Below are positions 12,893 through 31,702 of a stretch of 33,000 bases of DNA, in pieces. This DNA comes from Candidatus Iainarchaeum sp. (GTDB taxonomy: Archaea > Iainarchaeota > Iainarchaeia > Iainarchaeales > Iainarchaeaceae), in contig JACQPB010000040.1 in assembly GCA_016202305.1 (NCBI GenBank), positions 1 through 33,000 on the forward strand, in the 5' to 3' direction. Numbering within the stretch: the first letter of the stretch is position 1; the number at the start of each line of letters is the position of its first letter. The notes beneath the pieces are model-generated. The model was not told the DNA's origin. It made no database searches and worked only from the letters and a program-made list of their open reading frames with translations. The position numbers were made by a program, and so were the translations under genes.

Positions 12893-12996
12893 GGGGTCGT
12901 AGTTCATTGGCAGAACAACACGTTGACGAATCCACTAAGCAAAAGTTTATGGGTTCAAGTTCGTGTGGGTAGCAGGTTCGATTCCTGTCGGCCCCA
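12893..12996 (+). tRNA. tRNA-Val(GAC) with a 32-nt canonical (37/38) intron
   Basis: Acceptor GGGGTCG/CGGCCCC+A73, D arm GTTC-ATTGGCA-GAAC, anticodon stem ACACG/CGTGT, T arm GCAGG-TTCGATT-CCTGT. Bulge-helix-bulge: bulge CGA, 4-bp helix TTGA/TCAA, bulge GTT; intron 12929-12960. Confidence 0.88.
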
Positions 12997-18917: not shown

Positions 18918-19014
18918 TGGACCCTGCGGGACTCGAACCCGCCGTCTACTGCACATTGGTAAGCTTTCTGCCTAATGCCATGCAGTCGTGTTAAAGCCTC
19001 TACACTAAGGGCCC
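18918..19014 (-). tRNA. tRNA-Ala(GGC) with a 22-nt intron
   Basis: Acceptor GGGCCCT/AGGGTCC+A73 with G3:U70 (Ala identity); D arm GTGT/ACAC; anticodon stem ACTGC/GCAGT; loop ATGGCA-[intron]-T; T arm GCGGG-TTCGAGT-CCCGC. Relaxed BHB (bulges CAT and TGT, ATGG/CCAA with one mismatch, then TAGGC/GCTTA); intron 18954-18975. Confidence 0.9.
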
Positions 19015-19758
19015 CTGGAATTTCCTAGCTTTGTATGGCCTAATAAGCTCTATAAAAGAGCCTACACTGCGACTAAGGAGATATGTGCTGTGACAATCTT
19101 TTAAATTTGCCCTATGATTGACCGAGGTAAAGGAATGGAAGCCAAACTCGGCCAATAAAGATTTTGTTTGATTTGCCAACGATTCGGATGTTGTGTAGAA
19201 GGCTATTCTAATTCTTTTATCCTTACATCGGCATATAGTTCCGTCGGTATCTACTAAGCCGCGCAAAAAACCAATTTTGAATTCCCGCGGAAAATCGGCC
19301 CTTTTCAGTTTTACCGTGCAGTGCTTTATTTGCGGCACATAATCAAGATAACTCATGAAATGCCAGAATATTTTTTTGGAATAAGTTGTTAGCCTGAAGC
19401 GGCCCATAGATTCTTTTTTCAGCCTGAATTTTTTGTTGAAATAACTTTCGAATAGTCCCTTTACATATTTGACATATTCCAGTTTGCCAAAATGCACGTT
19501 TACAGCGTAACTGCCCCTGTCTTTCGCATGGTGTTGACTACCATCTCCTGCGAATATTCCAACAATTTCACCTTCGAGCTCGGAATAGTTTGTCTCGAAC
19601 TGTGGCTCTTCAAATTTCTTGCCACCTTTGAGTTTGGCATAGTACCAATACAATGTAGACTTGTTCCGCCCGGTGATTTTCGAAATTTTATTGAGGGAAA
19701 CGCCTTGCAGGATGAGTTTTTCCACCAGCCCTTTTTCTTCAAAAGTTAATCTGGACAT
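19000..19758 (-). CDS. LAGLIDADG homing endonuclease-like protein with N-terminal HTH (start reassigned to MSRLTFEEKG)
   Basis: Two LAGLIDADG-like motifs with acidic residues retained (IVGIFAGDGS, FLRGLVDTDGTI); HTH LNKISKITGRNKSTLYWYYAKL; TATA-like AATATAAA ~25 nt upstream of this ATG; last codons GGG CCC TTA GTG TAG lie in tRNA-Ala. Confidence 0.85.
   Translation of the reverse strand: MSRLTFEEKGLVEKLILQGVSLNKISKITGRNKSTLYWYYAKLKGGKKFEEPQFETNYSELEGEIVGIFAGDGSQHHAKDRGSYAVNVHFGKLEYVKYVKGLFESYFNKKFRLKKESMGRFRLTTYSKKIFWHFMSYLDYVPQIKHCTVKLKRADFPREFKIGFLRGLVDTDGTICRCKDKRIRIAFYTTSESLANQTKSLLAEFGFHSFTSVNHRANLKDCHSTYLLSRSVGSFIELIRPYKARKFQGPLV
19050..19061 (-). promoter_or_regulatory. TATA-like element (CTCTTTTATAGAGC) for tRNA-Ala, inside the endonuclease ORF
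   Basis: AT-rich box about 40 nt upstream of the tRNA 5' end. Confidence 0.45.
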
Positions 19759-20024
19759 ATAATGAGTCCGCAAAATTTCTTTATATTCCTCCCCACACCT
19801 CATTGCCGGTGCGGAATCCGGACGGTTCATTCCGAACCACCCTCTATTGCGGATAGAATCCATAGCTCGCGATCAGACAACTCATCGCCATTCTCTGCCG
19901 CCCGAATAGCGGAAAGTATTTCTTCAACAATGCGAAAAGCCTGCCAAAAATGTTTGAATATTTAGGAGATTAGCTATTAGTGTATCAATCTGATAATATA
20001 ATCCCTAAAGCCTTGCCTGAAGTT

Positions 20025-20255
20025 TCACGGACTTATCAGCAGCACGGTGTCGCCGCGCAGGAGCATCTTCCCGTACCTGTTCTTCGGCTCGCCGCCGACC
20101 AGCTTCTCCGCGTCCTCGAGCACGAGGTTCATGTGTATGTCGAAGGCCTTGAGCGTGCCCCTCACCGCCGTGTTCTCCTTGAGCTCCACGAGCACGGGCT
20201 TGCCTATGGAATCGCTGAGCAAATCAAACGGCCTGTTGCTTACCTTCTCGTTCAT
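20025..20255 (-). CDS. Sm-like archaeal protein (LSm/SmAP)
   Basis: RPFDLLSDSIGKPVLVELKENTAVRGTLKAFDIHMNLVLEDAE Sm1 and LLRGDTVLLISP Sm2. Confidence 0.95.
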   Translation of the reverse strand: MNEKVSNRPFDLLSDSIGKPVLVELKENTAVRGTLKAFDIHMNLVLEDAEKLVGGEPKNRYGKMLLRGDTVLLISP

Positions 20256-27934: not shown

Positions 27935-28006
27935 TTGGCAGCCGGCACCGGCAATGAGGCCTGGGGCCATTTATAAGCCGGCAATAACATATCGGTATGG
28001 GTATGT

Positions 28007-31000
28007 ATGGCGTCGGAAGGGGCTTTTGGCCAGCGCGAGGACAATCCTTTCGTGGAGAAGTTCGAAGCGTTCTTCAAGAACAGGCTGGTGAAGGAAATAG
28101 AGCGCCTCGTGGCGGATTACCCTTCAAAAAAAAGCCTGAATGTCGATTTCCGCGAGCTCGAGCACTGGGAGCCGGAGCTCGCTGACGAGCTCCTCGTAAA
28201 CTCGGACGTCTGCCTCGAGGCCGCGGAGCAGGCGATAAAGCGCATTGACGTCCCGCTCCTCGAACTCGAGGAAGACGATTTCGCCCCGCACATAAGGGTG
28301 TTCAATCTGCCCCTGGAAAGGCAGCCCATACTGCGCGACATAAGCGCCTCGCACATAGGGAAACTCATAACGGTCGAGGGCGTCGTGCGCCAGGTCACGG
28401 ACGTCCTGCCGAAGCTCAAGTACGCCACATGGGAATGCACCCGCTGCGGCGCGGCCTACAAGATACCGCAGACGAAGAACCAGACAAAGACGCCGAGCTT
28501 CTGCGCGGAATGCAAGAACCGGATGTTCAGCCTCAAGGAAGAGACAAGCGAATTCGAGGACTACCAGAAAATACAGATACAGGAGCCGCTCGAGCTCCTC
28601 AAGGGAAGCGAACAGGCCACGAACCTCGACATTTACGTGAGCGACGACATAGTGAACAGCATAAGCCCCGGAGACAGGACGAAAATAACCGGCATACTCA
28701 GATTAATGCCGCCCAAGGAAAAAAAAGTCGTGTACGGCAGGTACCTCGAGGCCATACACCTCGAGGAAACGGCTAGGGAATTCGAGGAAGTGGAGATATC
28801 GAGGGAAGAGGAAGAGGAAATAAAGAAACTCGCGGTGCGGGATGACGTCTACGAAATGCTCATACAAAGCATAGCCCCGCACATTTACGGCCATGAGGTC
28901 ATGAAGGAATCGATAGCGCTGCAGCTGTTCGGCGGCGTGAAAAAGAACCTCCCCAACGACCAGACAGTGAGGGGAAACATACACGTGCTCCTTGTCGGGG
29001 ATCCGGGCGTAGCCAAGTCCGCGATTCTTAGGGCAACCGACTCCATAGCGCCGAAATCCATCTACGTTGCGGGAAAGACAAGCACCGGCGCGGGCCTCTC
29101 GGCAACGGCAGTCAAGGACGAGTTCGGGGAAGGAGGATGGACGATAAAGGCCGGCGCACTGGTCCTCGCATCCGGCGGAATGGCCATGGTGGACGAGTTC
29201 GACAAGATGGAGCCCGGGGACAGGAGCGCGATGCACGAAAGCATGGAGCAGCAATGCTACCACAAGGATTTCGAGATAATGCTAGCAGACGGCTCAACAC
29301 ACAGGATAGGGGAACTCGTCGATGGGTTCATGGAGGAAAACAAGGGCAAGGTAATGCACGGAAAAGACTGCGAGATACTTGAAACCGGCAATCTCCTGCT
29401 TCCCACAACAGATTTCAGGAATGTTTTCTGCATCGCCGCAAAAAGCGTGAGCAGGCACAAGGCCCCGGAGTATTTCATCGAGCTGACATATTCAAACGGC
29501 AGGAAAATAAAAGTAACCCCTGACCACCCGGTATATGTATATGACAAGAACGGATTCAGCGAGATACCGGCAGAGAAGGTAAAAGAGGGCTCGGCAGTGC
29601 CGGCTGTCAAAAAATACCCTTCACTGAAGCAGGACGTCAAGCTGGCTCCCGCCACCGAAAAAGGGAGAAAAGAAATTTTACTGCCGGCAGGGATGAACGG
29701 AAACGTTGCAAGGGTTTTGGGATACGTTGCAACGGAAGGATATTCATACAGGAATATCGAGAACAGGTATGCCGAGATTGGTGTCTGCAACACTGACGCA
29801 GGCATTCTGGCTGACATGGAAAAGTCGTTTTCATCCGCATTTTCGGCAAAACTCAACCTCAACATGGTGCCTGCATGGAAAAAGGAAAACGCGACAAAGG
29901 ACATTACAACTGTGCGCTGCAGCTCCAAGGAGTTATATAGTTATTTTGAGTCCAATTTTCCGGAATTGATGCAGAAGGCAAGGGCAAAAAGGGCGCCGAA
30001 CAAAATCAAGAAGGCAAATCAGGAAGAAATAAAGAATTTTTTGCAGGCCGCGTTCCTGGGAGACGGGTTTATAGATAGCGAAAGATTCGGGTACAGGACA
30101 GCATCCTATAAGCTGGCGTGCGACTATCAGGACCTCCTGCTCCAGATGGGGATTTACTCCTACATTGCCGGGGAGAAAGGCGAGTTTTACAAGACCGTCG
30201 TTTCTGGAACCGGCAACATGGAGCTGTTCCTCGGCAAGGTTGTCTCAGATGATGACAAAAGGAGAGAAAAACTGGCGCGTTTTGTTGAGAGGAGCAAAAA
30301 AAGGGAATCCGGAAGGAACCTTCTGCCTCTGGCGATTGCGGAGCAAATAAACACGATACTCAAAAGCCTGAAGGCGAGTGACGGGTACATCGGGGAAAGA
30401 GTAAGGAAGGAAGAAAACATCGAGGCAGGAACCGCAAAAAAACATTTGGAAAAAGCCTCCGGAAAAATTCTGCTCTCCGAGCAGGCAATAGCAGCAGGCA
30501 ATCCCCGCGAGATAAGGAAAGCGGCAGGAATAAGCATTGCTGAAATTGCACGCAAAACCGGCATTTCCGGAAGCATGGTAACATACATAGAACGCGGCCA
30601 CGCACATGGCTCGCGCCAAAAACTCCTTGAAACTGCCAGGCGGATGGCTTCTGAAAAAATAGCGGACATTAAAAAAAGCGCCGAGGAAATAGCCGCATTA
30701 ATAAACTCTGACCTGAAATTCCTCAAAATCACGAAAGTCGAAAAAATCGCAAACGCGGACTCAAAATGGGCATATGATGTCAGCATCGAGCCGACACACT
30801 GCTTTATTTCCTCAGGAATAGTGCTGCACAACTGCATTTCCGTGGCCAAGGCCGGCATCGTCACGAAATTCAAGACCGAGACATCCATACTCGCGGCCGC
30901 GAACCCGAAGTACTCGCGCTTTGACCCTTACCAGCCCTTCATCGAGCAGATTGACCTGCCGGCCTCGCTCATAAGCAGGTTCGACCTGTTCTTCATGATA

Positions 31001-31702
31001 AAGGACGTGCTTGACAGGACAAAGGACGCGGAGATTGCGGGGCACATACTCAAGAGCCACAAGGCGGGGGAAATGATGCTCCAGCGCCAGAAGAAAGGAA
31101 TAAACTCCAAGGACAAGGAACTGGAGGAGATAACCGAACTGATAACCCCGAAGATTTCCGGCGAACTCCTGAAAAAATACATTTCATACGCGCGCCAGAA
31201 CATCTTCCCCGTGCTCGCGGATGACTCCATGAAGGAAATATCCGAATTCTACGTTTCATTGAGGGACCAGGGAAGGAAAGAGGGCGCCTACACGGCAACG
31301 CACAGGCAGCTCGAAGGCCTGATAAGGCTCTCTGAAGCGTCAGCGCGCGTCAGGCTCAGCGACTTCGTCGAAAGGCGCGACGTCGAAAGGGCCATAAGGC
31401 TCGTGCGCACCTCGCTGCAGGACATGGTGACGGACCCGGAAACAGGGAAGATAGACATAGACATCATAACATCCGGCCAGACGCACACCACGCTCTCGAA
31501 CCTCAAGAAAATCCTCGGCATAATAAAGGAGAAGGCGCAGGAACTCGACATGGTGCCGATAGAGGAAGTGATAACCGAAAGCAAGGCCCTCGGCATCGAA
31601 TCTGACAAGGTGCGCGACCTCCTTGACAAGCTCAGCAAGTCAGGCGACATATACACGCCGAGGCACGGGTTCGTCAAGCCCACGAAAAACAGGGGCGAGT
31701 GA
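28007..31702 (+). CDS. mcm: MCM replicative helicase precursor containing an intein
   Basis: VEGVVRQVTDVLPKLKYATWECTRCG, Walker A LLVGDPGVAKSAIL, Walker B MAMVDEFDKM, LISRFDLFFMIKDV arginine finger; internal intein. Confidence 0.97.
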   Translation: MASEGAFGQREDNPFVEKFEAFFKNRLVKEIERLVADYPSKKSLNVDFRELEHWEPELADELLVNSDVCLEAAEQAIKRIDVPLLELEEDDFAPHIRVFNLPLERQPILRDISASHIGKLITVEGVVRQVTDVLPKLKYATWECTRCGAAYKIPQTKNQTKTPSFCAECKNRMFSLKEETSEFEDYQKIQIQEPLELLKGSEQATNLDIYVSDDIVNSISPGDRTKITGILRLMPPKEKKVVYGRYLEAIHLEETAREFEEVEISREEEEEIKKLAVRDDVYEMLIQSIAPHIYGHEVMKESIALQLFGGVKKNLPNDQTVRGNIHVLLVGDPGVAKSAILRATDSIAPKSIYVAGKTSTGAGLSATAVKDEFGEGGWTIKAGALVLASGGMAMVDEFDKMEPGDRSAMHESMEQQCYHKDFEIMLADGSTHRIGELVDGFMEENKGKVMHGKDCEILETGNLLLPTTDFRNVFCIAAKSVSRHKAPEYFIELTYSNGRKIKVTPDHPVYVYDKNGFSEIPAEKVKEGSAVPAVKKYPSLKQDVKLAPATEKGRKEILLPAGMNGNVARVLGYVATEGYSYRNIENRYAEIGVCNTDAGILADMEKSFSSAFSAKLNLNMVPAWKKENATKDITTVRCSSKELYSYFESNFPELMQKARAKRAPNKIKKANQEEIKNFLQAAFLGDGFIDSERFGYRTASYKLACDYQDLLLQMGIYSYIAGEKGEFYKTVVSGTGNMELFLGKVVSDDDKRREKLARFVERSKKRESGRNLLPLAIAEQINTILKSLKASDGYIGERVRKEENIEAGTAKKHLEKASGKILLSEQAIAAGNPREIRKAAGISIAEIARKTGISGSMVTYIERGHAHGSRQKLLETARRMASEKIADIKKSAEEIAALINSDLKFLKITKVEKIANADSKWAYDVSIEPTHCFISSGIVLHNCISVAKAGIVTKFKTETSILAAANPKYSRFDPYQPFIEQIDLPASLISRFDLFFMIKDVLDRTKDAEIAGHILKSHKAGEMMLQRQKKGINSKDKELEEITELITPKISGELLKKYISYARQNIFPVLADDSMKEISEFYVSLRDQGRKEGAYTATHRQLEGLIRLSEASARVRLSDFVERRDVERAIRLVRTSLQDMVTDPETGKIDIDIITSGQTHTTLSNLKKILGIIKEKAQELDMVPIEEVITESKALGIESDKVRDLLDKLSKSGDIYTPRHGFVKPTKNRGE
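29255..30832 (+). mobile_element. In-frame intein of ~526 aa in MCM at MEQQ|C...HN|C, with LAGLIDADG and XRE-HTH-like segments
   Basis: Begins CYHKDFEIMLADGSTHRIGELVD; ends YDVSIEPTHCFISSGIVLHN followed by +1 Cys; LAGLIDADG-like RVLGYVATEGYS and FLQAAFLGDGFID; exteins rejoin as MHESMEQQ-CISVAKAGIVTKF. Confidence 0.95.

Follow-up and report, generated by a model that had tools for sequence, protein, structure and literature searches.

Free-standing LAGLIDADG endonuclease genes beside tRNA genes in Diapherotrites/Iainarchaeota, one of them ending inside an intron-containing tRNA-Ala(GGC) gene

Results

An endonuclease gene ends inside tRNA-Ala(GGC)

The window (the whole stretch of DNA analysed, 33,000 nucleotides of contig JACQPB010000040.1 from Candidatus Iainarchaeum sp.) contains a minus-strand locus in which an endonuclease gene is the sole gene between an LSM gene and tRNA-Ala(GGC). 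The following features were recognised.

20025..20255 (-): LSM (Sm-like) gene, identified by Pfam; a conserved neighbour that served as anchor for finding empty sites
19759..20024 (-): spacer between the LSM gene and the endonuclease gene, in which the tRNA 5' end is not repeated
19000..19758 (-): free-standing helix-turn-helix plus LAGLIDADG endonuclease gene, 252 aa (Pfam, AF2, Foldseek, pN)
19651..19755 (-): N-terminal helix-turn-helix, residues 2-36 (sub-threshold PF13936; helices 6-17, 22-29 and 33-43 in the AF2 model)
19537..19569 (-): LAGLIDADG motif 1, EIVGIFAGDGS, with D72 (alignment)
19237..19269 (-): LAGLIDADG motif 2, FLRGLVDTDGT, with D172 (alignment)
19000..19014 (-): overlap of 15 nt, in which the last four sense codons and the TAG stop of the endonuclease gene are tRNA positions 1-15 (sequence)
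18918..19014 (-): intron-containing tRNA-Ala(GGC) gene, presumably where the element homes and lands (tRNA finding, sequence reading)
18954..18975 (-): canonical bulge-helix-bulge (BHB) tRNA intron of 22 nt at 37/38 (sequence reading and fold)

The endonuclease reading frame is open from 19863 to 19000, and its start at 19758 is backed by the alignment with a homolog from the same genus (L003). The protein matches LAGLIDADG_3 (E 2.7e-15) and, weakly and below the curated cut-off, HTH_38 (E 6.6e-4). It has no splicing domain and is encoded by its own frame, not within an intron or intein. The first-pass annotation had described the acidic residues of both motifs as retained; D72 and D172 are indeed invariant across 31 homologs. 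In the AF2 model (pLDDT 90) the protein is predicted to have a two-repeat fold like that of I-DmoI, and Foldseek groups it with I-DmoI, PI-PfuI and I-Tsp061I (E about 6e-9 for I-DmoI and PI-PfuI; TMt about 0.73-0.81 for I-DmoI). The gene appears to be under purifying selection, since pN is 0.27 in comparison with its counterpart in the related genome G043, while synonymous sites are saturated. With the window protein alone as query, no match was found in the genome contigs and viral contigs scanned; query A1 gave one weak match among the viral contigs.

The terminal codons of the endonuclease gene, GGG CCC TTA GTG TAG (stop at 19002-19000), coincide with nucleotides 1-15 of the tRNA gene, as had been read earlier. 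Processing of the tRNA 5' end could conceivably cut the 3' end of the endonuclease mRNA, as the first-pass annotation proposed. Direct reading of the tRNA places the anticodon at 18979-18977 and reveals G3:U70. The intron, which had also been anticipated, is bordered by a BHB motif with a central helix of four positions flanked by two 3-nt bulges; paired positions are 5/5 in the outer, 3/4 in the central and 5/5 in the inner helix, and the computed fold gives largely the same stems. The homologous intron of G043 tRNA-Ala is 21 nt long and pairs at 5/5, 4/4 and 5/5 positions. The TATA-like string noted earlier within the endonuclease codons, TTTTATAG, is present about 37-45 nt upstream of the tRNA and is at most a candidate tRNA promoter; G043 has no matching string at this position. 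The two genomes instead share GCTTATwAkGCCAT, another candidate, about 30 nt upstream of the tRNA. Elsewhere in the window, at 12893-12996 (+), lies a second intron-containing tRNA (104 nt, Rfam tRNA 51.8 bits), which has no adjoining endonuclease and is missed by default ARAGORN.

A gene that directly adjoins a tRNA on the same strand could be the remnant of an integrase-type element of the pNOB8 or SSV style, for which the tRNA would be attB. When archaeal elements integrate, the tRNA is restored at the junction, and in the pNOB8 type the integrase gene adjoins it directly in the same orientation (PMC3293823). At the present locus no integrase was found and the protein is a LAGLIDADG endonuclease, without companion genes between LSM and tRNA in either the window or G043. 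A search of the 19759..20024 spacer for a leftover tRNA half, which would be a direct repeat upstream of the reading frame, yielded 8 nt as the longest exact match to the tRNA. This origin is therefore very improbable.

Empty and occupied alleles of the same site

G043 belongs to the same genus. Its endonuclease is 60% identical to that of the window, lies in the same LSM/MinD-like neighbourhood and likewise enters tRNA-Ala(GGC), in another frame that ends at a TAA in the D-loop after an overlap of 23 nt. In both genomes the endonuclease frame is homologous up to tRNA position 1, and the junction is therefore flush. Across much of the order, tRNA-Ala(GGC) comes after the LSM gene. The first-pass annotation had read the locus as an insertion and had proposed a comparison with relatives, in which empty sites with an undisturbed tRNA 5' flank would support this reading. 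Such sites exist: in 39 genomes tRNA-Ala(GGC) stands beside LSM without the endonuclease, and in 23 of these the sense spacer is at most 80 bp, where in the window a reading frame intervenes. Insertion is thus backed by 39 empty versus three occupied alleles.

Two of the three occupied sites (among 42 genomes) carry a LAGLIDADG gene and one a different gene. The latter was encountered when the LSM-to-tRNA-Ala gaps of other genomes, which hold mostly unrelated reading frames, were checked for hidden endonucleases.

L212, about 3200-1800, G004:C40 (-): HTH reading frame followed by a 378-aa reading frame, flush on tRNA-Ala(GGC) (ORF reading)

The 378-aa frame is of unknown class (Pfam gives no match, and structure comparison nothing informative). 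Its C-terminal MGP and stop codon fall on the tRNA-Ala bases GGGCCCTTAG, the TAG stop being at positions 8-10. The tRNA itself carries more than one insertion. Different, unrelated genes have thus landed flush on one and the same tRNA. The G004 frame is possibly a second nuclease class that shares the landing strategy.

Free-standing homologs adjoin tRNA genes throughout the phylum

Homologs were sought in 87 genomes of Diapherotrites/Iainarchaeota, all of them assemblies and mostly MAGs, by a protein search followed by a profile search, which gave matches in 48 and 73 genomes, respectively. Since ARAGORN labels are unreliable for intron-rich tRNAs (Gln appeared as Leu or Stop, Val as Pro or Tyr), a custom tRNA finder and manual reading were used. 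A tRNA gene was present within 100 nt of 95 of the 107 complete free-standing homologs versus none of the 24 intein-type homologs (Fisher P 1e-17). In 7 of the 12 exceptions the tRNA had been missed by the finder, was lost at a contig end or lay 108-123 nt away, or the endonuclease copy was broken. Conservation of the gene far from any tRNA, which would have spoken against the earlier reading, was not seen among these free-standing relatives. Same-locus reading frames, 87 of 326 of which lie near a tRNA, were dropped as adjacency control in favour of the intein-type homologs, because the loci had been chosen around tRNAs. A long frame at 27977-31702 (+) of the window, matched weakly by the endonuclease profile (E 1e-10), is probably an intein-containing gene; it is not adjacent to a tRNA.

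Four arrangements were distinguished.

Arrangement A, same strand: the endonuclease 3' end enters the tRNA at its 5' end; the overlap is repeatedly 15 nt, with the stop at tRNA positions 13-15, or 10 nt, with the stop at 8-10
Arrangement B, other strand: the 3' ends of endonuclease and tRNA abut; Thr-GGT, Gly-GCC, Asp, Ile
Arrangement C: endonuclease downstream of the tRNA; Thr-CGT, Val-CAC
Arrangement D: endonuclease 17-56 nt upstream of the tRNA; Lys, Phe, most Arg-TCG

The identical 15-nt overlap was found before Glu, Gly, His, Val, Gln and Leu tRNAs in other genomes. The overlap in the window is more than chance, because it recurs before these tRNAs and, in another frame, in the sister species. 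Many homologs stop at the conserved TAG of the tRNA, at positions 13-15 or 8-10. Judged from the tRNA sequence, bases 8-10 and 13-15 would provide TAG in two of the three frames, and a gene that arrives flush would not have to bring a stop codon with it.

Records named Pacearchaeota, Nanoarchaeota, Woesearchaeota and Aenigmatarchaeota also contain homologs, at Val, Arg and Ala tRNAs. A record labelled Chloroflexota (L236, DAOWAC010000057.1) bears the tRNA-Val endonuclease, equals contig G025:C42 of the Diapherotrites phylum in length (6759) and is probably misbinned or mislabelled. The genome of the window itself has at least two more tRNA-adjacent endonucleases, one preceding a multi-intron tRNA-Lys by 37 nt (L059, G000:C16) and one antisense over a tRNA labelled Arg (L327, G000:C19).

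Endonuclease clades follow tRNA identity

In a tree of 96 endonucleases, 26 tRNA/orientation labels, some of them set by hand as introns confuse ARAGORN, required 26 changes; the minimum is 25, the mean after shuffling was 77.1 and none of 200 shuffles came out as low. When all labels were assigned automatically (77 rows), the 22 anticodon labels needed 25 changes versus 60.6 when shuffled. The Val-GAC clade spans phyla, with Pacearchaeota and Nanoarchaeota members (L234, L239, L240). The tRNA-Thr(GGT) site type is occupied by two separate clades (the L098 group, and L084/L090/L322). Specificity of the endonucleases for tRNA identity is likely, not proven, and the tRNA gene as their target is supported indirectly, in that the clades track tRNA identity.

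It could be argued that the endonucleases are passengers that target other sites, and that the neighbourhood of a tRNA is simply a transcribed, conserved and insertion-tolerant harbour. Many elements commonly insert at tRNA genes (PMC3293823), and the position upstream of a tRNA is evidently tolerated. Such passengers would not, however, be sorted by tRNA identity, whereas the clades match one isoacceptor and one orientation in several phyla, which makes this explanation quite unlikely.

Vertical inheritance at an orthologous tRNA locus would also cluster the labels on the tree. Among 234 same-label endonuclease pairs, 124 have a neighbour gene in common and 110 have none; no common neighbour was found in the 10 Glu pairs or the 3 Ile pairs. 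The pairs that share neighbours, together with the purifying selection on the window gene, would suit a vertically inherited, domesticated gene that was placed once per tRNA long ago, perhaps as a regulator of the tRNA gene or as a non-cleaving DNA-binding protein like WhiA. WhiA, with its LAGLIDADG-derived fold, is indeed among the Foldseek structure matches. WhiA is not known to keep the catalytic acidic residues; the window family has not undergone this loss, both residues being invariant. The presence of the gene is moreover very patchy (3 of 42 genomes at tRNA-Ala), broken copies exist (L066 and L088), and tRNA-Thr(GGT) is held by two unrelated clades and tRNA-Ala(GGC) in one genome by a different gene. 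Domestication is thus unlikely.

Introns are frequent in tRNAs beside endonucleases

Introns were present in tRNA-Ala(GGC) at 3 of 3 endonuclease-bearing versus 6 of 39 empty sites (P 0.007, relatedness ignored). The same comparison gave 11/14 with versus 3/28 without endonuclease for tRNA-Phe (P 2e-5) and 7/8 versus 8/33 for tRNA-Gln (P 0.002), again with relatedness ignored, with controls partly taken from best BLAST hits and with the Gln isoacceptors incompletely separated. An intron in the D-loop of tRNA-Gln occurred in five genes with and none without an endonuclease. Grouped by arrangement, 41 of 64 tRNAs in A and D (hand count) had an intron versus 8 of 35 in B and C. A census with RF00005 found an intron in 24 of 108 tRNAs of three genomes, which differ greatly from each other, and it misses some intron-rich tRNAs. 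Introns at unusual positions adjoin endonucleases in Gln, Val, Glu, Arg-GCG, Lys and Phe tRNAs. The association of introns with endonucleases holds in the present data. The introns may be mobilised together with the endonuclease, may confer protection against it, or may do both. Protection by introns cannot be the sole source of immunity, because roughly one in three tRNAs in the flush or near-flush position lacks a recognisable intron.

Discussion

The recurrence of the arrangement, with each lineage keeping to its own, often intron-bearing, tRNA, is suggestive of selfish elements that form a family homing on tRNA genes. With good confidence we regard the window gene as a member of a large family of free-standing LAGLIDADG homing endonucleases that would be specialised on tRNA genes in Diapherotrites/Iainarchaeota and other DPANN, with one tRNA per lineage. 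For this family we infer cleavage, homing, a recognition site and a role of the intron. Each lineage would recognise one tRNA gene, which would be tRNA-Ala(GGC) in the case of the window, and would cut the cognate allele that is free of the element. Recombinational repair from the occupied allele would copy the endonuclease gene in, flush with or next to the tRNA, and a flush landing would leave the tRNA whole. In the flush same-strand mode, T8-A9-G10 or U13-A14-G15 would supply the TAG stop, and the conservation of tRNAs would thereby hand a stop codon to any gene landing in this way. In the allele that carries the element, the adjoining intron probably interrupts or changes the target site, and it may be carried along with the endonuclease gene. 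The recognition site could lie across the tRNA 5' junction, where the insertion would split it, or within the tRNA, where an intron or base changes would protect the host allele; in the antisense and downstream arrangements the position of the target would have to differ.

The LAGLIDADG enzymes I-DmoI, I-Tsp061I, PI-PfuI and the TliVMA intein have the same fold and catalytic motifs as the window family. Their place is within an rRNA intron or an intein, whereas the window family is free-standing and lies outside the tRNA, and the window copy has an additional N-terminal HTH domain. In collaborative or intronless homing (F-CphI of cyanophage S-PM2; seg and mob of T4) a free-standing endonuclease lies beside an intron-bearing target gene. 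This resembles the pairing of free-standing endonuclease and intron-bearing neighbour described here; the introns are of group I in those systems, whereas here they are archaeal BHB tRNA introns spliced by proteins. The SSV and pNOB8 integrases also join an element to a tRNA gene that is reconstituted (PMC3293823), but they are site-specific recombinases that leave direct repeats, none of which were seen at the window locus. The nearest known analogue is SegB, a free-standing homing endonuclease of T4/T6-like phages that is widely found next to tRNA genes, cuts within them and amplifies tRNA loci (PMC13096335). SegB shares with the archaeal family its free-standing nature and its place beside tRNA genes; it differs in being a GIY-YIG and not a LAGLIDADG enzyme, and in belonging to phages and not to a cellular archaeal genome. 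Isoacceptor-specific clades, the borrowing of a stop codon and a link to tRNA introns are not described for SegB in the passages of PMC13096335 consulted. In the open-licence literature on LAGLIDADG or homing endonucleases at tRNA genes in archaea, DPANN and Diapherotrites, the association was not reported.

The accumulation of introns in archaeal tRNA genes, often at unusual positions, is a long-standing puzzle. Mobile-element invasion has been put forward as a pressure for tRNA disruption, with integrases implicated (Randau and Soell, as cited in PMC3293823). Isoacceptor-specific endonucleases at intron-rich tRNA genes would be a concrete and cloneable agent of such pressure, and the family may help to spread tRNA introns. 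More tentatively, and with somewhat less than even confidence, the endonucleases might be the motor of archaeal tRNA intron gain, and the tRNA introns of DPANN in part their co-mobilised or resistance-conferring footprint. A lineage would then cut intronless alleles of one tRNA, and repair would copy the endonuclease gene together with a small BHB intron, either canonical or at an unusual position such as the D-loop. Empty, occupied, intron-plus and intron-minus alleles all exist for a comparison of cleavage, and the family would offer many natural enzymes with predicted tRNA-gene targets.

Some tRNAs of unusual structure were met in the course of the survey. Two endonuclease-adjacent tRNAs (L288 in G033:C125, and L240) have very large insertions, apparently several introns, and span 171-201 nt. 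At G033:C72:3641-3871 (L389) the 5' part of a tRNA-Gln (query 1-25) lies downstream of the 3' part (47-73) on the same strand, which represents either two genes or a permuted tRNA.
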